A DNA stretch of 34,459 nucleotides from an uncultured Coriobacteriia bacterium. Its GTDB lineage: Bacteria; Actinomycetota; Coriobacteriia; Anaerosomatales; PALSA-660. The translations under genes and the position numbers were made by a program. Below the pieces are notes generated by a model. It did no database searches, was not told where the DNA came from, and saw nothing but the letters and a program-made list of their open reading frames with translations. The stretch is taken from positions 1 to 34,459 of the forward strand of contig CAIKZH010000069.1 in NCBI GenBank assembly GCA_903831865.1, in the 5' to 3' direction. Every line of letters begins with the position of its first letter. Position 1 is the stretch's first letter. Positions 25,096 through 33,273 of the stretch are shown here, piece by piece.

Positions 25096-26451
25096 CTACG
25101 CGGTCAGCTCACGCATCGCAGCGCGCCACGCAAGCGGGAGGCGCTCCTTGAGGAGGTCCCACGAGCCGATGCTCGTGCCGATCATCCGGGTCACGAAGGG
25201 TCGGGCGGTCTCCATGATGTCGATGTCGGGGTACAGGCGCCGGGCCACGCCCTCCACCGTCGCCAGGGACTTCACGAGCAGCCCGTAGCCCGGCGGCACC
25301 GCGATGGAGTGCCTCCTCAGCAGCCGCAGGAACCCGAGACCGAAGTGGCGGAAGTCGCCGTTCGGACCGGCGGGCGTCACATCGAGGAGTTCGCCGAGCT
25401 CTCGGCGAAGCACCGGCACCTTGCGCGATGGGACGCGCACCCCCAGGCGCGCCGAGTAGCGCAGCGCGCGATCGGCGTCCCGATAGACGAACGCCGCGAG
25501 GACCTGAGCGATGTCACCCCGTTGCGTGTCGGTGAGATGGCCGACGATACCGAAGTCGAGATACGCGATGCGCGAATCCGGGGTCACGAAGAGGTTCGAG
25601 GGGTGCAGGTCGGCGTGATAGCGCCCGTGGACCATCACCTGCCGCATGAAGGCCGTCGCACCGTGGACCGCGAGCCCATGGGCGTCGATGCCGGCGAGCT
25701 CGGCGTCGTCCAGCTCGGACAGCCGCCAGCCGTACATGCGCTCCATGGTCAGAACGCGCGACGAGGTCCGGCTCCAGACGATACGCGGCACCGCGATCAT
25801 CGGGTCGTCGCGGAAGTCGAAAGCGAAGCGGTCGGCGACGCGCCCCTCGACCCTCAGGTCGAGCTCCCGGCGTATCGAGGCCTCGAACTCGTCGAGCAGG
25901 GCAAGAAGATCGATGCCGCGCGTGAGAGCGCGCACGGCGCGCCCCCCTGCGATCGAGCGGGCCTCCGCCACATCTCCCAGCAGAGCATCCGCCGCGCCCG
26001 GCCGGATGACCTTGACCGCGACCTTGCTGCCCGCCGGCAACTCCGCGCCCCATACCGGCCGGCACGGTTCGGCGAGCACCGCCGCGTGCACCTGCGCGAC
26101 CGAGGCGGAGGCGAGCGGCTGCTCCTCGAAGGAGTCGAACAGCGCAGAGGGTGGGCGGGCGAAGGTCTGCTCGATCACCGCGGCGATGTCGGAGTACGGG
26201 GCGGGAGCGACCTCGTCGCGCAGCCGGGACATCTCCGAGGCGAGCTCGTCGCCGAACTCGTCCGGACGCACCGAGATGAGCTGGCCGAGCTTCAGGAACG
26301 CGCCACCGAGCTCGTCGAACGCCTCGCGCCACTCCACCGCGAACGCCTGCAGGCGAGCGCCCTTCGCGAGCCCCGCGCGCACTGACCGCGCGGATGCGCG
26401 GCGCAGGTGCCGACCGAGGGTCGTGGCGATACGCCGGGACCGCACCGACAT
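25096..26451 (-). CDS. ABC1/UbiB-family atypical kinase
   Basis: This 451-aa member of the ABC1 (ADCK/UbiB) atypical kinase family has the KxGQ motif in AFLKLGQLISVRPD (Lys54-Gln57), the Ala-rich loop PLASASVAQVHAA (112-124), Lys147 in VAVKVIRPG, the catalytic-loop motif HADLHPSNLF (His279-Asp281) and the metal-binding DFG at 299-301. In bacteria and mitochondria these proteins support isoprenoid quinone synthesis through ATPase activity. This one is about 100 residues shorter than E. coli UbiB and has no C-terminal pair of membrane helices. It follows the small coiled-coil gene by 15 bp. No quinone biosynthesis gene is nearby, so its role is open. Confidence 0.9.
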   Translation of the reverse strand: MSVRSRRIATTLGRHLRRASARSVRAGLAKGARLQAFAVEWREAFDELGGAFLKLGQLISVRPDEFGDELASEMSRLRDEVAPAPYSDIAAVIEQTFARPPSALFDSFEEQPLASASVAQVHAAVLAEPCRPVWGAELPAGSKVAVKVIRPGAADALLGDVAEARSIAGGRAVRALTRGIDLLALLDEFEASIRRELDLRVEGRVADRFAFDFRDDPMIAVPRIVWSRTSSRVLTMERMYGWRLSELDDAELAGIDAHGLAVHGATAFMRQVMVHGRYHADLHPSNLFVTPDSRIAYLDFGIVGHLTDTQRGDIAQVLAAFVYRDADRALRYSARLGVRVPSRKVPVLRRELGELLDVTPAGPNGDFRHFGLGFLRLLRRHSIAVPPGYGLLVKSLATVEGVARRLYPDIDIMETARPFVTRMIGTSIGSWDLLKERLPLAWRAAMRELTA

Positions 26452-26466
26452 CCGGATGCGGCCTCC

Positions 26467-26808
26467 CTACGCCTGGGACGCGCCGAGGTGCAGCGCGATC
26501 GCGTCGAGGCTCGCCTGCATCTGATCCAGCCGGCCCCGCAGTTCGCCCACCTCGAACCGCAACTCCTCGAGGCGCCCGTCCTGCGCCTCGGGGGCCAGTG
26601 CGGCCCCGCCTGCGAGCCCGGCCTTCAGGCGGTCCTTCTCCTCCGCGATCATGGCCATGAGGCCGTCGGTGAAGGCGTCCGGGCCGCTCGTCATGCCTTC
26701 ACGCGCCGCATCCGCCCCACGGGCGACCGCGGCCTTCATGAGCTCGTCGGCCTGTTCGTGCGCCAGCATCCACATGGCGAACAGGCGCATCACGTCGACA
26801 TCCGACAT
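26467..26808 (-). CDS. Small alpha-helical, coiled-coil protein (phasin-like), function unknown
   Basis: This 113-aa soluble protein is predicted to be almost all helix. The N-terminal part (MSDVDVMRLFAMWMLAHEQA) is amphipathic, a Gly/Ala/Pro-rich hinge lies near residues 64-76, and the C-terminal 35 residues (RLEELRFEVGELRGRLDQMQ) form a clear heptad coiled coil. AAGGAGG precedes the ATG. Similar small phasin-like helical proteins are often encoded beside ABC1-family kinases in Gram-positive genomes, so it may bind or position the kinase downstream. That is inference from context and general memory, not from a search. Confidence 0.65.
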   Translation of the reverse strand: MSDVDVMRLFAMWMLAHEQADELMKAAVARGADAAREGMTSGPDAFTDGLMAMIAEEKDRLKAGLAGGAALAPEAQDGRLEELRFEVGELRGRLDQMQASLDAIALHLGASQA

Positions 26809-26835
26809 CCTTGTGCCTCCTTGCGGCCGCCCGAC

Positions 26836-26862
26836 GGTGGCCGCACCCGGGACGCGGCCACC
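26836..26862 (-). terminator. Hairpin after zntA
   Basis: GGTGGCCGC and GCGGCCACC form a perfect 9-bp stem with a 9-base loop, 36 bp after the zntA stop and 28 bp before the small coiled-coil gene. There is no T-tract on the minus strand. It may be a weak terminator or a leader structure of the downstream gene. Confidence 0.35.
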
Positions 26863-26897
26863 CCGCCATCGTAGCGCGACGTGCTGTCACGCACTCT

Positions 26898-29522
26898 TCA
26901 GGCGGCATGAGCACGCAGCAGGCGCAGTCCGTTCAGCGTCACGAGCAGCGAGACGCCCGTGTCTGCGAACACGGCGAGCCACAGCGGGGCGATGCCGATC
27001 GCCGCGAGCACCAGCACCACCGCCTTCGTCGCGACGGAGAACGCGACGTTGGCGCGGATCGTCGACACCGTTCGGCGGCCGAGGTCGAGAAGGCCCGGCA
27101 GCGCGCTGATCTCCGGCGTCATGAGTGCCACGTCCGCGGTCTCCAGCGCGGTGTCGGAACCGGCGGCGCCCATCGCGATCCCCAGCGAGGCCGCCGCCAG
27201 CGCCGGCGCGTCGTTCACGCCGTCGCCGACCATCGCGACGGTCCCGTACTCGACCGCGAGCTCGCGCACCGCTCCGACCTTGTCGGCTGGCAACAAGCGC
27301 GACCTGTGCTCGCGGACGCCGGCGAAGGCCGCGACTGCCGCGGCGGTGCGTTCGTTGTCTCCTGTGAGCATGACCACATGCCTGACCCCGCCGCGCCGCA
27401 GCGCGTCCACCACTGACGCGGCTTCGGGACGCACCTCGTCAGAGAGCGCGATGAGCCCGAGCGTGGTGGAATCCGCGACGAGCGCCATCACGGTGGCGCC
27501 CCGCTCCTCGATGCGGCCGATGTCGGCCTCCACTTCGGGCGTGACCGCCCCCAAGCGGCTCGCGAAGTCGGGGCTCCCGATCGCGTACTCCCGCCCCGAG
27601 ATCGTCCCTCTGACGCCTCGCCCCGCGCTCTCGATCAGACCCGTCACGGCGCCCGCGGTCGGGAGCCCGTGGTTGGCCCGCACCACAGCCAGCGCGAGCG
27701 GATGCGTCGAACCGATCTCGAGCGCCGCCGCAAGGCCCAGCACGCGGTCCGCATCGGGCTCCGCGAGGGGCACGACCTCCACAACGACGGGCCTGCCGAA
27801 AGTGAGCGTGCCGGTCTTGTCGAACGCGACAGCCCGGACCTCGGCCGCCACCTCGAGGTAGGTGCCGCCCTTGATGAGGACGCCGTCGCGCGCGGCACGG
27901 GTGATCGCCGAGACGATCGCCACCGGGGTCGAGATCACGAGCGCGCACGGACACGCCACGACGAGCATCACGAGCCCGCGATAGACCCAGGTCGACAGCG
28001 CGCCGAGCCCCAGCACCGGCGGCCCGAGCGCGACCGCGACCGCCCCGGCTATCACGACCGGCGTGTAGTAGCGCGTGAACCGGTCGACCGTCCGCTGGAG
28101 AGGCGCCCTCTGCGCCTGCGCCTCCTCGACAAGGAAGATCACGCGGGCGAGCGTCGAGTCCGCCGCCAACCGGGTGACCTCGATCTCCAGAAGCCCACTC
28201 GTGTTGAGCGATCCCGCGAACACCTCGTCACCGGGCTGCTTGTCGGCCGGCACCGACTCCCCCGTGATCGGCGACTCGTCGACAGCGGACGCTCCAGCGC
28301 GGACGAGGCCGTCCAGGGCGATGCGCTCGCCCGGTCGGACAACGAGCGTGTCTCCGGCGACGACCTCCGCCGCCTGCAGCTCGACCTCGCCGCCATCGCG
28401 CCTGACCAGGGCAGAAGGCGGCGTCAGATCCATCAGGTCCCTGATCGAGCGGCGGGTCCGGGCGAGCGCTCTGCTCTCGAGCGCCTGGCCGATCGAGAAG
28501 AGGAACATCACCGTGGCCGCCTCGGCGAAGTCGCCGAGCCCGATGGCTCCCACCACAGCAAGGGTCATGAGCACGTTCATGTCGAGGCTGCGCGCGCGCA
28601 CCGACGCCCATGCCCGGCGAGCGGTGAGCGCTCCGCCCACCAGGGCGGCGATCACGAAGGCCGCTGACGGAGCGCCGGCGGACGCGGGGAACACCCTCGC
28701 GATCTCGAGAACGTAGCCGACCGCGATCAGGACGCCGCTGACGATGAGGCTCGCCTCGTGTCCATGAAGGAGCCACCAACTCGCGGGAGGGAGCGGCGGC
28801 TCCTCGAAACGGGGATCGACTTCGGCGTCGTAGCCGGCCTCACGGATCGCCTGCGCGAGCTTCCTCGTGTCGGTGACCGCGGGGTCGTAGCCCACGCGAA
28901 GGGTGGCGGTGCCGAAGTCCGCCTCGGCCGTCTCCACGCCATCGAGCCGTCCGAGGCCTCGGGCCAGCTTCGTCGCGCACTCGGCGCAGTCGAGCCCCTT
29001 GAGCCGGAACCGCGCGATGCACCCCGACTCGGCCGTCTCCAGCGACTCGACCCCGTGGCCGGCGGCGCGCACCACGTCCAGGACCGCCCCGCGGGCGTCG
29101 TCGGCAGGGTCGTACTCCATCATCAGCACACCGGTGGCGAAGTTCAGGTCCGCGGAGATGACACCGGGGATCTGCCTGGCGGACTTCTCGACTGTGCGGG
29201 CGCAGTCGGGGCAGTCCAGCCCGATGACCCGCCACGCGGCGTGGGCGACACCCTTGCCAAGGTCCATCCCGAGCCTGCGGACCTCGGCCTCGATCGCCGC
29301 CTCCGGAAGCCGGGACGTGTCGTGCACGACCGTGAGCGTCGCCGCGCGCGCATCCAGTCGGGCGGAGACGACCCCGTCTATCGACTCCACGCCCGCCCGC
29401 AGCTTCTCGACACACCGCGCGCAGTTGACCTGGGACGGGACGATGAGTCCCAGACGCAGGGAATGTGTGTGCCGCGACGCGCTCTCGGACGGTTCGATTG
29501 CATCCTTCGTGTGATCGTCCAT
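26898..29522 (-). CDS. zntA: Zn2+/Cd2+/Pb2+-exporting P1B-type ATPase (ZntA/CadA type)
   Basis: This 874-aa heavy-metal pump has three N-terminal metal-binding (HMA) domains with Cys pairs at 34/37 (NCARC), 104/107 (DCPDC) and 179/182 (DCAEC). The membrane core carries CPC at 524-526 (VVACPCALVIS). The cytoplasmic domains show TGES, phosphorylated Asp568 in DKTGTLT, the HP motif (607-608), TGDN and MVGDGVNDAPA. Lys833 in the seventh and Asp854 in the eighth membrane helix (FADTGVSLLVTLNGLRLL) mark the P1B-2 class, which exports Zn2+, Cd2+ or Pb2+, rather than copper. The ATG at 29520-29522 is used; a TTG 12 codons upstream is less likely. It is divergent from the 29641 gene. Confidence 0.94.
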   Translation of the reverse strand: MDDHTKDAIEPSESASRHTHSLRLGLIVPSQVNCARCVEKLRAGVESIDGVVSARLDARAATLTVVHDTSRLPEAAIEAEVRRLGMDLGKGVAHAAWRVIGLDCPDCARTVEKSARQIPGVISADLNFATGVLMMEYDPADDARGAVLDVVRAAGHGVESLETAESGCIARFRLKGLDCAECATKLARGLGRLDGVETAEADFGTATLRVGYDPAVTDTRKLAQAIREAGYDAEVDPRFEEPPLPPASWWLLHGHEASLIVSGVLIAVGYVLEIARVFPASAGAPSAAFVIAALVGGALTARRAWASVRARSLDMNVLMTLAVVGAIGLGDFAEAATVMFLFSIGQALESRALARTRRSIRDLMDLTPPSALVRRDGGEVELQAAEVVAGDTLVVRPGERIALDGLVRAGASAVDESPITGESVPADKQPGDEVFAGSLNTSGLLEIEVTRLAADSTLARVIFLVEEAQAQRAPLQRTVDRFTRYYTPVVIAGAVAVALGPPVLGLGALSTWVYRGLVMLVVACPCALVISTPVAIVSAITRAARDGVLIKGGTYLEVAAEVRAVAFDKTGTLTFGRPVVVEVVPLAEPDADRVLGLAAALEIGSTHPLALAVVRANHGLPTAGAVTGLIESAGRGVRGTISGREYAIGSPDFASRLGAVTPEVEADIGRIEERGATVMALVADSTTLGLIALSDEVRPEAASVVDALRRGGVRHVVMLTGDNERTAAAVAAFAGVREHRSRLLPADKVGAVRELAVEYGTVAMVGDGVNDAPALAAASLGIAMGAAGSDTALETADVALMTPEISALPGLLDLGRRTVSTIRANVAFSVATKAVVLVLAAIGIAPLWLAVFADTGVSLLVTLNGLRLLRAHAA

Positions 29523-29640: not shown

Positions 29641-30369
29641 ATGAGCGACGAGTCGACACGAGGAACCGTCGTGATGGAGCCGCAGGGCGCGGGGCGTGCT
29701 CCGTCGCCGCCCGCGACCGCAAGCGCCGTGGGACCCCCGCCCCGTCGAGGCGTGCCGGTCTGGCTCGTCGTCGTCCTGATCCTGCTCGCCGTCCTGATCG
29801 CGGGGGGTGCTGCCTGGCTGCTGCGGGGCTCCTCGTCCGCTCCCGCGTCCGGCACCGCGGTGACGACGTCGACTGAACCGGCGACAGGGACCGCGAATAC
29901 GACGCCGAACGTTGCTGTGGCGACCGCCGCGCCCAAGCCTGTCGTGAAGCCGAGTGTCAAAGTGCCGACCTCGGTGCGCGAGGCGGCGATCGTGAAGAAG
30001 GTGACCGGGAACACGTCGACGGGCTATCACCTCACGGTCGACTACGTGCAGTGGCTCACCGGCAAGGCGGCGGCGGCAGCGGCCAAAGCCCACGGCGACG
30101 AGTCCCCTCCGCCGAACGACTACTACATCGTCAACGACAGCCCCAAGCTGCGGACGTTCGTTCTCCCCCCCTCCGCGACGATCAGCGTACTGGGCTGGAA
30201 GGGCGACGGAACGGACACGCTCAAGCCCAGACTCATCACCCCGGCGCAGTTCCAGAGCGTGCTCACCGGCGGATCCCACCCTCGGACCGAGTATACGGAC
30301 GGGACTTTCTGGCTCACTGTGGTCGACGGCGCCAAGGTGACCAGGATCGTTCAGCAGTTCAGACCGTAG
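29641..30369 (+). CDS. Membrane-anchored extracytoplasmic protein, paralog A, function unknown
   Basis: This 242-aa protein has a cytoplasmic N-terminus rich in Pro and Ala (1-37), one membrane helix (38-61, VPVWLVVVLILLAVLIAGGA), a Ser/Thr/Ala-rich linker (62-110) and an extracytoplasmic domain (about 111-242). The domain contains LTVDYVQWLTGKAA (131-144), then NDYYIVNDSPKLRTFVL (159-175), and ends DGAKVTRIVQQFRP. I do not recognise a named family. The next gene encodes a paralog with the same layout. The ATG has AGGGGGCGC upstream; the frame is open 40 codons earlier but that part carries the promoter. It is divergent from zntA, with no evidence of a shared function. No catalytic motif was seen. 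Confidence 0.8.
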   Translation: MSDESTRGTVVMEPQGAGRAPSPPATASAVGPPPRRGVPVWLVVVLILLAVLIAGGAAWLLRGSSSAPASGTAVTTSTEPATGTANTTPNVAVATAAPKPVVKPSVKVPTSVREAAIVKKVTGNTSTGYHLTVDYVQWLTGKAAAAAAKAHGDESPPPNDYYIVNDSPKLRTFVLPPSATISVLGWKGDGTDTLKPRLITPAQFQSVLTGGSHPRTEYTDGTFWLTVVDGAKVTRIVQQFRP

Positions 30370-30442
30370 CCAGCGCCGGACGCGCACGACCGGCGGCCGG
30401 GCCGCGCGGACAGTGTCCGACCCCGTACGAAGGGACGAGCGG

Positions 30443-31141
30443 ATGAGCGACCTCTCACAGTCTGATGACTCCAGGCGCGTCGGGCGGACCGCTCCGCTGT
30501 GGGCGGTGATCGTGATCGGCATCGCCGCGCTGCTGGTCGGCCTGCTCGGCGGCGCCCTGTTGCTGCAGGCCCTCCAGGCGGGAACGAGCGCGAAGCTCGC
30601 CGAGGTGGAGAGCCAGAACGCGACCCTCACCGCGCGCGTCGATGCGCTGACAGCAAGCCTCACGGTGGCGGCCAGCCAGGTGGCGACGACTCCGACACCC
30701 GCCGCCTCCGTGGCGGTCGTACCGAAGCCGCCGGCGACCGTGAAGGTCTACACGTACATCAAGAGCGCATCGGTCAGCGGCGGCACGCTCACCATCGTCG
30801 CGGACTACGTGCAGTACCTCACAGGGAGCGCCGCCACCCACGCCGCGGCCGTCCACGGCGGCTCGGTCGGCTACGGAGGCTCGTACGTCCTGAACGAGAG
30901 CTCGACTCTCCGACACCTGCACCTGCTGTCCTCGGCGAAGGTGCTGCTCATCGAATGGTTCGAGACGGGCACGGCGGGATCGAGCATCAAGACCGGACAG
31001 GTCACGTCCAAGGACTTCGTCGACGCGGTGCGGGGCGTGCTCACATCGCCATCGGGTGTCTGGTCACCTGCGCACCACGTCTTCGCCATGACGGTGACCG
31101 GCGACGACGTGAGCAGGATCGAGCAGCTGCCGGGCTACTAG
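30443..31141 (+). CDS. Membrane-anchored extracytoplasmic protein, paralog B, function unknown
   Basis: This 232-aa protein has one membrane helix (19-42), a short extracytoplasmic coiled coil (about 49-80, KLAEVESQNATLTARVDALT), a Thr/Pro/Ala-rich linker (81-97) and a C-terminal domain (about 98-232). The domain aligns with that of the preceding gene: LTIVADYVQYLTGSAA (116-131) against LTVDYVQWLTGKAA, SYVLNESSTLRHLHLL (147-162) against YYIVNDSPKLRTFVL, and a shared V-x-RI-x-Q ending. The aromatic residues and HG that follow the LTG-AA block are kept. The coiled coil is absent from paralog A. The ATG has AAGGGACGAG upstream. It lies 73 bp after paralog A, probably co-transcribed, and ends 20 bp from convergent uvrB. 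Confidence 0.8.
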   Translation: MSDLSQSDDSRRVGRTAPLWAVIVIGIAALLVGLLGGALLLQALQAGTSAKLAEVESQNATLTARVDALTASLTVAASQVATTPTPAASVAVVPKPPATVKVYTYIKSASVSGGTLTIVADYVQYLTGSAATHAAAVHGGSVGYGGSYVLNESSTLRHLHLLSSAKVLLIEWFETGTAGSSIKTGQVTSKDFVDAVRGVLTSPSGVWSPAHHVFAMTVTGDDVSRIEQLPGY

Positions 31142-31161: not shown

Positions 31162-33273
31162 TCACCGCCGCTTGCGGTGCCCGTAGGTGGAGCCTTTTCG
31201 AGCGCCCTTCTTCAGCCGCGCGAGCGCCTCGTCCTCGCTTGAACGATCCACCTGCGAACGAAGCTTCACCACCTGATCGCGGAGCCGCACGGCGGACTCG
31301 AAGTCCAGGGCCTCGGCCGCGCTCGTCATGTCCTCCTCCAGGGAGGCGATCAGGCGGAGCACCTCGTCGTGAGGCAGCCCGGCGAGTTCCCTTGCGACCT
31401 CCTCGGCGGCCATCCCTTCTCCGCCCTCCGACTTCGCATAGCTCACGATCGCGTGGATCGCCTTGCGGATGGTCTGGGGCTCGATCCCGTGCTCCGTGTT
31501 GTAGGCGACCTGCTTCTCGCGGCGACGATTGGTCTCGTCGATCGCAAGGCGCATGGAGTCCGTCACGGCGTCCGCGTACATGATCACCGAGCCGGAGACG
31601 TTGCGCGCCGCCCTCCCGATGGTCTGGATGAGCGAGCGGAAGTTGCGGAGGAAGCCGGCCTTGTCGGCGTCGAGGATCGCCACGAGTGACACCTCGGGCA
31701 GGTCCAGACCCTCGCGCAGGAGGTTGATGCCGACGAGGCAGTCGAACTCGCCCGCGCGCAGGTCGCGCAGGATCTCGATGCGCTCGAGCGTCGCGATGTC
31801 CGAGTGCAGGTACCTCACGCGCAGGCCCTGGTCCGCCAGGTAGTCCGTGAGGTCCTCGGCCATCTTCTTGGTGAGCGTGGTGACCAGGACGCGCTCGTTC
31901 TTCTCGGCGTGCTCGCGCACCTCGTGCACGAGGTCGTCGATCTGCCCCTTGGTGGAGCGCACGGAGATGACGGGGTCGACGAGGCCCGTCGGGCGGATGA
32001 TCTGCTCCACGATCCGAGGCCGGGAGATGTCGAGCTCGTAGTCGCCGGGTGTGGCGGAGACGTAGACGACCTGAGGGACGCGCTGCTCGAACTCGTCGAA
32101 ACGCAGAGGCCGGTTGTCGAGCGCGCTGGGCAGGCGGAACCCGTGCTCCACGAGCGTGAGCTTGCGGCTGCGGTCGCCTTCGTACATGCCGCGGATCTGC
32201 GGGACCGTCACGTGACTCTCATCGATGATGGTGAGGAAGTCCGGCGGGAAGTAGTCGATCAGGCAGTGCGGCGGCTCCCCCGGCCCGCGCCCGTCAAGGT
32301 GACGCGAGTAGTTCTCGATCCCCGAGCAGAACCCGATCGTCTCCAACATCTCGAGGTCGTAGTTCGTCCGCATCTCCAGCCTCTGCGCCTCGAGCAGCTT
32401 GCCCTCGGAGCGGAAGAAGGCCAGCCGCTCGTTCAGCTCGTCTCGGATGGACACGAGAGCCGCCTGCAGTCGTTCCGGGACGGTGACGTAGTGTGTGGCG
32501 GGCCAGACGGGCACGGACTCGAGCCGCGCGACGACCTCGCCGCTCACCTGGTCGACCTCGACGACCGACTCCACCTCGTCGCCGAAGAACTCGACGCGCA
32601 GGGGCCGCTCGGAGTAGGGCGGGAAGATGTCGAGCACGTCGCCGCGCACCCTGAAGGTCCCGCGAGCGAGGTCGTAGTCGTTGCGGTCGTACTGGATGTC
32701 GATGAGACCGCGGATCAGCACGTCGCGGTCCAGGTCGCTGCCCACTTTGAGGAAGACCGCACGGCCCGCGTAGTCCTCCGGCGACCCGATGCCGTAGATG
32801 CAGCTCACGGACGCGACCACGACGACGTCACGACGAGAGAGCAGCGCCGCCGTGGCGGCGTGGCGAAGCCGCTCGACCTCCTCGTTGATCGAGGAGTCCT
32901 TCTCGATGAACGTGTCGGTGGAGGGGACGTAGGCCTCGGGCTGGTAGTAGTCGTAGTAGGAGACGAAATATACGACCGCGTTGCCCGGCATCAGGTCCTG
33001 GAGCTCGGACGCGAGCTGGGCCGCGAGCGTCTTGTTCGGCGCCATCACCAGCGCCGGCCTCTGCACCGTCTCGATGGTCTTGGCCATCGTGAACGTCTTG
33101 CCCGAGCCGGTGACCCCGAGGAGCGTCTGATGGGCCGCGCCGGCGCTGACGCCCTCGGAGAGTCGCGCGATGGCGGCGGGCTGGTCGCCGGCGGGCTCGT
33201 ACGCGGCCTCGACTCTGAACCGGTTGCTCAACTGCCCAACGCCCCCTCTCGCTGCCGATCCCTGGTCGGTCAC
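31162..33273 (-). CDS. uvrB: Excinuclease ABC subunit B
   Basis: This 703-aa helicase-like damage-verification protein loads UvrC in nucleotide excision repair. Walker A is GVTGSGKT (53-60). The DNA-clamping beta-hairpin lies in [20 protein letters not shown] (105-124), and the DEAD-like box is [10 protein letters not shown]. Helicase motifs V and VI appear as [14 protein letters not shown] and QTIGRAARN. The C-terminal UVR domain that binds UvrC is [20 protein letters not shown]. Length is normal. The GTG start at 33271-33273 overlaps the transglycosylase stop as GTGA, so translation is probably coupled. It is apart from uvrA and uvrC, which lie 13-20 kb away. Confidence 0.97.

Follow-up and report, generated by a model that had tools for sequence, protein, structure and literature searches.

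What do two adjacent genes do that encode membrane proteins ending in the same nameless domain? The question is raised by positions 29641–31141 of the window, which is the whole stretch of 34,459 nucleotides analyzed here, from an uncultured Coriobacteriia bacterium. A first-pass annotation had described tandem paralogous membrane-anchored proteins at this site. Both ORFs, here called A and B, are where it had placed them, and their layout and the homology of their domains were borne out. We suggest, with a probability of roughly 0.4, that they are stalked extracytoplasmic binding modules, with A the canonical copy and B a lineage-specific diverged copy. This is the most likely reading of the locus.

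Results

Genes A and B

The two proteins have a common layout: one membrane helix, then a low-complexity stalk, then a C-terminal domain that is homologous between them and about 130 aa long. The features of the locus are as follows.

26898..29522, − strand: divergent neighbour, CPx-type heavy-metal P-type ATPase (copA-like), with three CxxC metal-binding motifs, CPC and DKTGT; not a family member
29641..30369, + strand: gene A, canonical copy, 242 aa, with a single membrane helix, Ala/Thr/Pro stalk and C-terminal domain, end QQFRP
29758..29823, + strand: membrane helix of A, residues 40–61 (hydropathy and direct reading)
29824..29976, + strand: low-complexity stalk of A, residues 62–112, without coiled coil
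29977..30366, + strand: C-terminal domain of A, residues 113–242 (alignment; AlphaFold pLDDT 92.5, pTM 0.84)
30100..30126, + strand: hallmark loop ESPPPNDYY of the canonical domain, in A (near-invariant alignment columns; conservation across 100 representatives)
30370..30442, + strand: A–B gap, 73 bases, with purine-rich GAAGGGA ahead of the ATG of B
30443..31141, + strand: gene B, diverged paralogue, 232 aa, with a single membrane helix, coiled-coil then low-complexity stalk, and C-terminal domain
30497..30565, + strand: membrane helix of B, residues 19–41 (hydropathy and direct reading)
30587..30670, + strand: heptad repeat, predicted coiled coil of B, residues 49–76 (shuffle test)
30743..31138, + strand: C-terminal domain of B, residues 101–232 (E = 1e-18 to a B-free profile; AlphaFold pLDDT 90.2, pTM 0.83)
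31162..33273, − strand: convergent neighbour uvrB, syntenic

Gene A starts at the ATG at 29641 and reads MSDESTRG..., and gene B starts at the ATG at 30443 (MSDLSQ...); the MSD... start is common to A, B and the A-type relatives. Relatives from its genus and family share about 39–57% identity with A where they align. The reading frame of B is unbroken and coding-like in its base pattern (GC by codon position 0.64/0.52/0.90); a ribosome site ahead of it is plausible, and its coiled coil is well formed. The aligned domain is followed by no further residue in A and by 2 residues in B. Since RR (inside) stands ahead of the membrane helix of A, its C-terminus is predicted to be outside. By standard topology rules, the basic residues before the membrane helix and the lipoboxes of relatives predict an extracytoplasmic domain, with cytoplasmic tails of about 39 residues in A and 18 in B.

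The identity of A and B had been put at roughly a third by eye, and BLASTP gives 35% across 141 aa, with E = 3e-10. The Smith–Waterman score of the two C-terminal domains is 114, while 1000 shuffles gave a mean of 29 and a maximum of 49 (Z = 17). Furthermore, an HMM of 28 relatives from which B was left out matches B at E = 1e-18 over the whole domain of about 126 positions, and the best of 300 shuffled sequences reached E = 0.15. A matches the family profile by construction. The E-values of iterated profiles with the queries included were not counted as proof of homology. The motif reported as LT-(x0-2)-DYVQ is present in both domains, but its spacing has to be corrected, as one residue separates LT from DYVQ in A and three do so in B. 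The membrane anchor had also been described as shared. The layout is indeed the same; however, the N-terminal halves, consisting of the membrane helix and linker, are not alike beyond composition (score 69, best shuffle 72, Z = 4.8). The linkers do differ as reported, since the heptad pattern at residues 49–76 of B was reached by none of 300 shuffles, and no such pattern is found in the linker of A.

Predicted fold of the domain

Structure prediction with AlphaFold of each domain alone gave one fold for A and B, not two. Both models run in one order, from two long strands (1 and 2) through a helix spanning LTGxAA, strands 3–5, a short strand and a second helix to a closing hairpin. In the model of A, the C-terminal tail is placed with confidence. 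A and B are paralogues with a common predicted fold.

No known family had been recognised in the first reading, and profile searches led to the same result. Neither sequences nor alignments found a family in Pfam, NCBIfam or PHROGs above the curated cut-off or with a convincing E-value, and PDB searches by sequence, with single sequences and alignments, gave no convincing relative of the domain. The best Foldseek matches in PDB have E-values of 0.62 for A and 0.17 for B, with TM-scores mostly of 0.2–0.3, and none is significant. A fold search of A against viral models gave no significant match either, and a literature search found nothing on the domain. As no solved structure is like the models, binding cannot be argued from the fold. 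Actinobacterial FtsL (NF053549) was rejected as an identification for B, which scores 22.2 bits against a cut-off of 55 (E = 1e-4), over the helix and coiled coil only.

The domain family

Single-sequence searches found relatives in 37 of 61 near genomes. With a profile, the family was found in 48 of the 69 genomes of the order and in 52 of the 397 genomes sampled from the phylum Actinomycetota; the nearest named records to the domain are metagenome-assembled Coriobacteriia. The family is broad within the phylum. One relative is titled Alphaproteobacteria, and in 249 genomes sampled from that phylum the domain was present in that one genome only; thus, in this sampling, which did not include Bacillota, the family looks sporadic outside Actinomycetota. 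We searched for plasmid, phage and viral-contig relatives and found none, so a mobile or phage origin is without support. Four further loci (L052, L054, L060 and L043) carry the titles Rhodocyclaceae, Slackia, Aeromicrobium and Firmicutes. Their family genes adjoin uvrB like those of Coriobacteriia, and copA adjoins in three of them too. Given these surroundings, the four are probably mis-titled metagenome bins.

The domain is tethered and C-terminal throughout the family. When the anchors of 102 distinct members were classed by simple hydropathy and a lipobox rule, 72 were membrane helices and 26 were lipoboxes. The anchor is followed by a stalk that is Thr/Pro/Ala/Glu-rich or coiled-coil, and the domain ends 0–7 residues from the C-terminus in nearly all of the 102. 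Even among close orthologues of A, within its own family, the stalk may be coiled-coil or Thr/Pro, and so the difference in linkers, which had been taken as a mark of this pair, does not distinguish it.

The conserved motifs of the domain are D(Y), LTG..A, PND, N.N..LR and QY.P, and neither Cys nor His is conserved among 100 representatives that share less than 80% identity. Proline closes the protein in 90 of these 100, and QYLP is the commonest ending. ESPPPND is present in A, and its end, QQFRP, fits (Q)Y-x-P but with F for Y. In B, ESPPPND is replaced by GGSVGYGG, and the end is LPGY, not (Q)Y-x-P. For comparison, the last residue of uvrB is R in 26 of 28, over much closer sequences. As uvrB also has a fixed last residue, the terminal proline should not be taken to prove a special mechanism.

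A few members carry additional domains. The lipoprotein at L091:700–1842 (+) has GerMN (Germane, E = 8e-12) followed by the family domain at its C-terminus. The arrangement is the same in the lipoprotein at L099:745–1845 (+), where the GerMN match is weak and under the Pfam cut-off. At L114:3027–4289 (−), a class III cyclase (PF00211, E = 7e-14), a membrane helix and the extracytoplasmic family domain are joined in one protein. By eye, a propeller-like lipoprotein (L107) and an anti-sigma-like protein (L110) also have the domain; Pfam confirmed neither assignment.

Could the domain be a structural cap or assembly piece of an envelope scaffold, in which the coiled coil and stalk set spacing and oligomerization? 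A scaffold-type role has been suggested for GerMN-type and FtsL-type proteins. The GerMN fusion in lipoproteins, the coiled coil in B and in many relatives, and the weak FtsL-like match of B, which is under the cut-off, are consistent with such a role. However, the FtsL score of 22 against 55 bits comes from the helix and coiled coil only, and the patchy presence and fast copy turnover of the family are unlike those of core assembly parts. We regard a structural envelope role as rather unlikely, and as the main rival to the binding module.

Gene order and copy number

In 38 named loci, a copA-like gene lies upstream of the family gene in 26, uvrB lies downstream in 28, and both are present in 22, with short contigs explaining some of the missing neighbours. 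The copA–A–uvrB position is conserved, and the second copy turns over. In many loci there is an ABC transporter between copA and A. Two more genes follow copA in the window. One (26470–26886, −) is small and conserved, looks coiled-coil-like towards its C-terminus and is seen again in 23 other loci; the second (25096–26451, −) is a UbiB/ABC1-like kinase gene, seen again in 21 others. Outside the class, no consistent partner emerged: the recurrent neighbours amount to an MFS/MarR cluster confined to one family and a small number of ABC ATPases unconnected with one another. In six loci of one actinobacterial family (L082, L083, L085, L086, L089 and L112), the family gene is near an MFS transporter gene, and a MarR-type regulator is beside some of them.

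The copA-like gene, directly divergent in the window and upstream in most of the named loci, might suggest that A and B are accessories of the heavy-metal ATPase, acting in metal capture or in a metal-stress response. But uvrB is equally conserved on the other side, so the link to copA looks like inherited gene order. Furthermore, the ABC transporter intervenes in many loci, no Cys or His is conserved in the domain, and copA is not among the recurrent neighbours of members in other classes. A role in metal handling is very improbable.

The number and type of copies at the copA/uvrB locus vary among relatives. A is alone in G003, G006 and G007. G002 has A and a near-identical second copy that is frameshifted in the assembly; this copy (L151:3718–4383, +) changes frame right after ESPP, which may be a sequencing error or a decaying duplicate. 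In G005, A is accompanied by a different second type, common to G040, G053 and G460, and four copies stand side by side in each of G053 and G460. G044 likewise pairs the canonical copy with one of the second type, and G029 has one copy at the locus. The only member in G004 is divergent. A third type, with a domain beginning GQLKGIRDESGG, occurs in several genomes of family f12. A paralogue clade with this beginning (GQLKGIRDESGG...EEQPRDPYYEP; support 100/100) includes L013:772–1497 (−), L019:1873–2604 (+), L015:766–1497 (−) and others. Its members adjoin the canonical copy in the loci read and have a 7-residue C-terminal extension, again with proline at the end. Overall, 14 of the order's 48 family-positive genomes have neighbouring copies, and among second copies the ESPPPND loop tends to be missing. 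This variation at a fixed locus indicates that tandem duplication is recurrent.

The duplication had been thought to be old, with both copies kept. This is not supported by the relatives, in which the second copy is absent, near-identical or of another type, nor by B, for which no orthologue was found in any genome searched. In a tree built from few alignment columns, B is a lone long branch with 1.63 changes per column, and A is placed close to its family's canonical copies, though the support is not strong. The A–B pair in this window is not an old, jointly conserved unit.

Is B then a recent, fast-diverging and dispensable duplicate heading for loss, so that A alone matters? Its singleton long branch, its absence from relatives, whether by loss or because it was never present, and the frameshifted second copy in G002 would fit this explanation. 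However, the B reading frame is intact, with the coding-like base pattern and plausible ribosome site described above, the coiled coil is well formed, and the domain is still predicted to have the family fold. We consider it unlikely that B is dispensable.

The first-pass annotation had raised the possibility that A and B act together as a heteromer, either a surface sensor or a pair that binds a ligand. They are adjacent on the same strand, and no terminator-like site was found in the gap between them; tandem partners recur in the order, and one distant member, L114, is fused to a class III cyclase. Yet the close relatives G003, G006 and G007 keep A alone, B lacks an orthologue, and the types of partner vary by lineage. 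Moreover, A and B both lack a cytoplasmic output domain, and the neighbours are a P-type ATPase and uvrB, not a kinase or cyclase. We found no positive evidence for a heteromeric sensor, and such a pair is quite unlikely. The cyclase fusion does no more than keep sensing a possible function for the family.

Discussion

The binding module that we prefer would work as follows. A and B would be bitopic in the cytoplasmic membrane, with the N-terminus in and the C-terminus out, and a flexible or coiled-coil stalk would hold the small beta-rich domain outside the membrane. In the family as a whole, the domain is tethered by a helix or lipid and almost always forms the very end of the protein, in some members after other extracytoplasmic domains. 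A candidate ligand is a component of the envelope or a protein. A would retain the conserved ESPPPND / NDN..LR surface, and B may be a lineage-specific duplicate that has kept the fold, lost the motifs and changed its partner or ligand. We infer the topology, co-expression and binding role, and the last is the weakest step. Against binding, the invariant residues may be structural and not contact a ligand: the C-terminal tail has a confident position in the model of A.

A bolder version would make the family a phylum-wide actinobacterial sensory domain, extracytoplasmic, with a fold absent among solved structures and a fixed C-terminal -QYxP carboxylate. It would signal via the fused class III cyclase in some lineages and via partner proteins elsewhere, and recurrent tandem duplication would give pairs of canonical and motif-less copies. 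We think this improbable.

The family is common in uncultured subsurface Coriobacteriia, spread over Actinomycetota and missing from the libraries searched, and a name for it would bring annotation to many lipoproteins and membrane proteins together. A confident model with no counterpart in PDB recommends the domain for structure determination, and the fusions to GerMN and to a cyclase offer concrete ways into its function.

Comparison with known systems

OB-fold proteins (SSB, PriB and ribosomal S17) dominate the weak fold matches of A and appear among those of B. With E-values of 0.6 or worse, TM-scores of about 0.2 and rmsd of about 10, these matches are not significant and do not support an OB-fold identity; their dominance hints at a small barrel at most. 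DUF5666 (PF18914) and DUF3221 (PF11518) have, by eye, a like ladder of short strands and occur in genomes of the same order. Both were rejected as parent family, with hhalign probabilities of <1% and 0.3%, respectively.

The GerMN lipoproteins (PF10646; LpqB- and GerM-like) are also extracytoplasmic, lipid-anchored and actinobacterial, and GerMN is fused ahead of the family domain in L091 and, more weakly, in L099. The family domain differs in having no PF10646 match, and A and B contain no GerMN. Class III adenylate/guanylate cyclases with an extracytoplasmic domain (PF00211) resemble L114 in the order of cyclase, membrane helix and family domain, whereas A and B have no cyclase or other output domain. 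The domain family is new to the libraries searched, and its general kind, a tethered extracytoplasmic domain of Gram-positive bacteria, is familiar.
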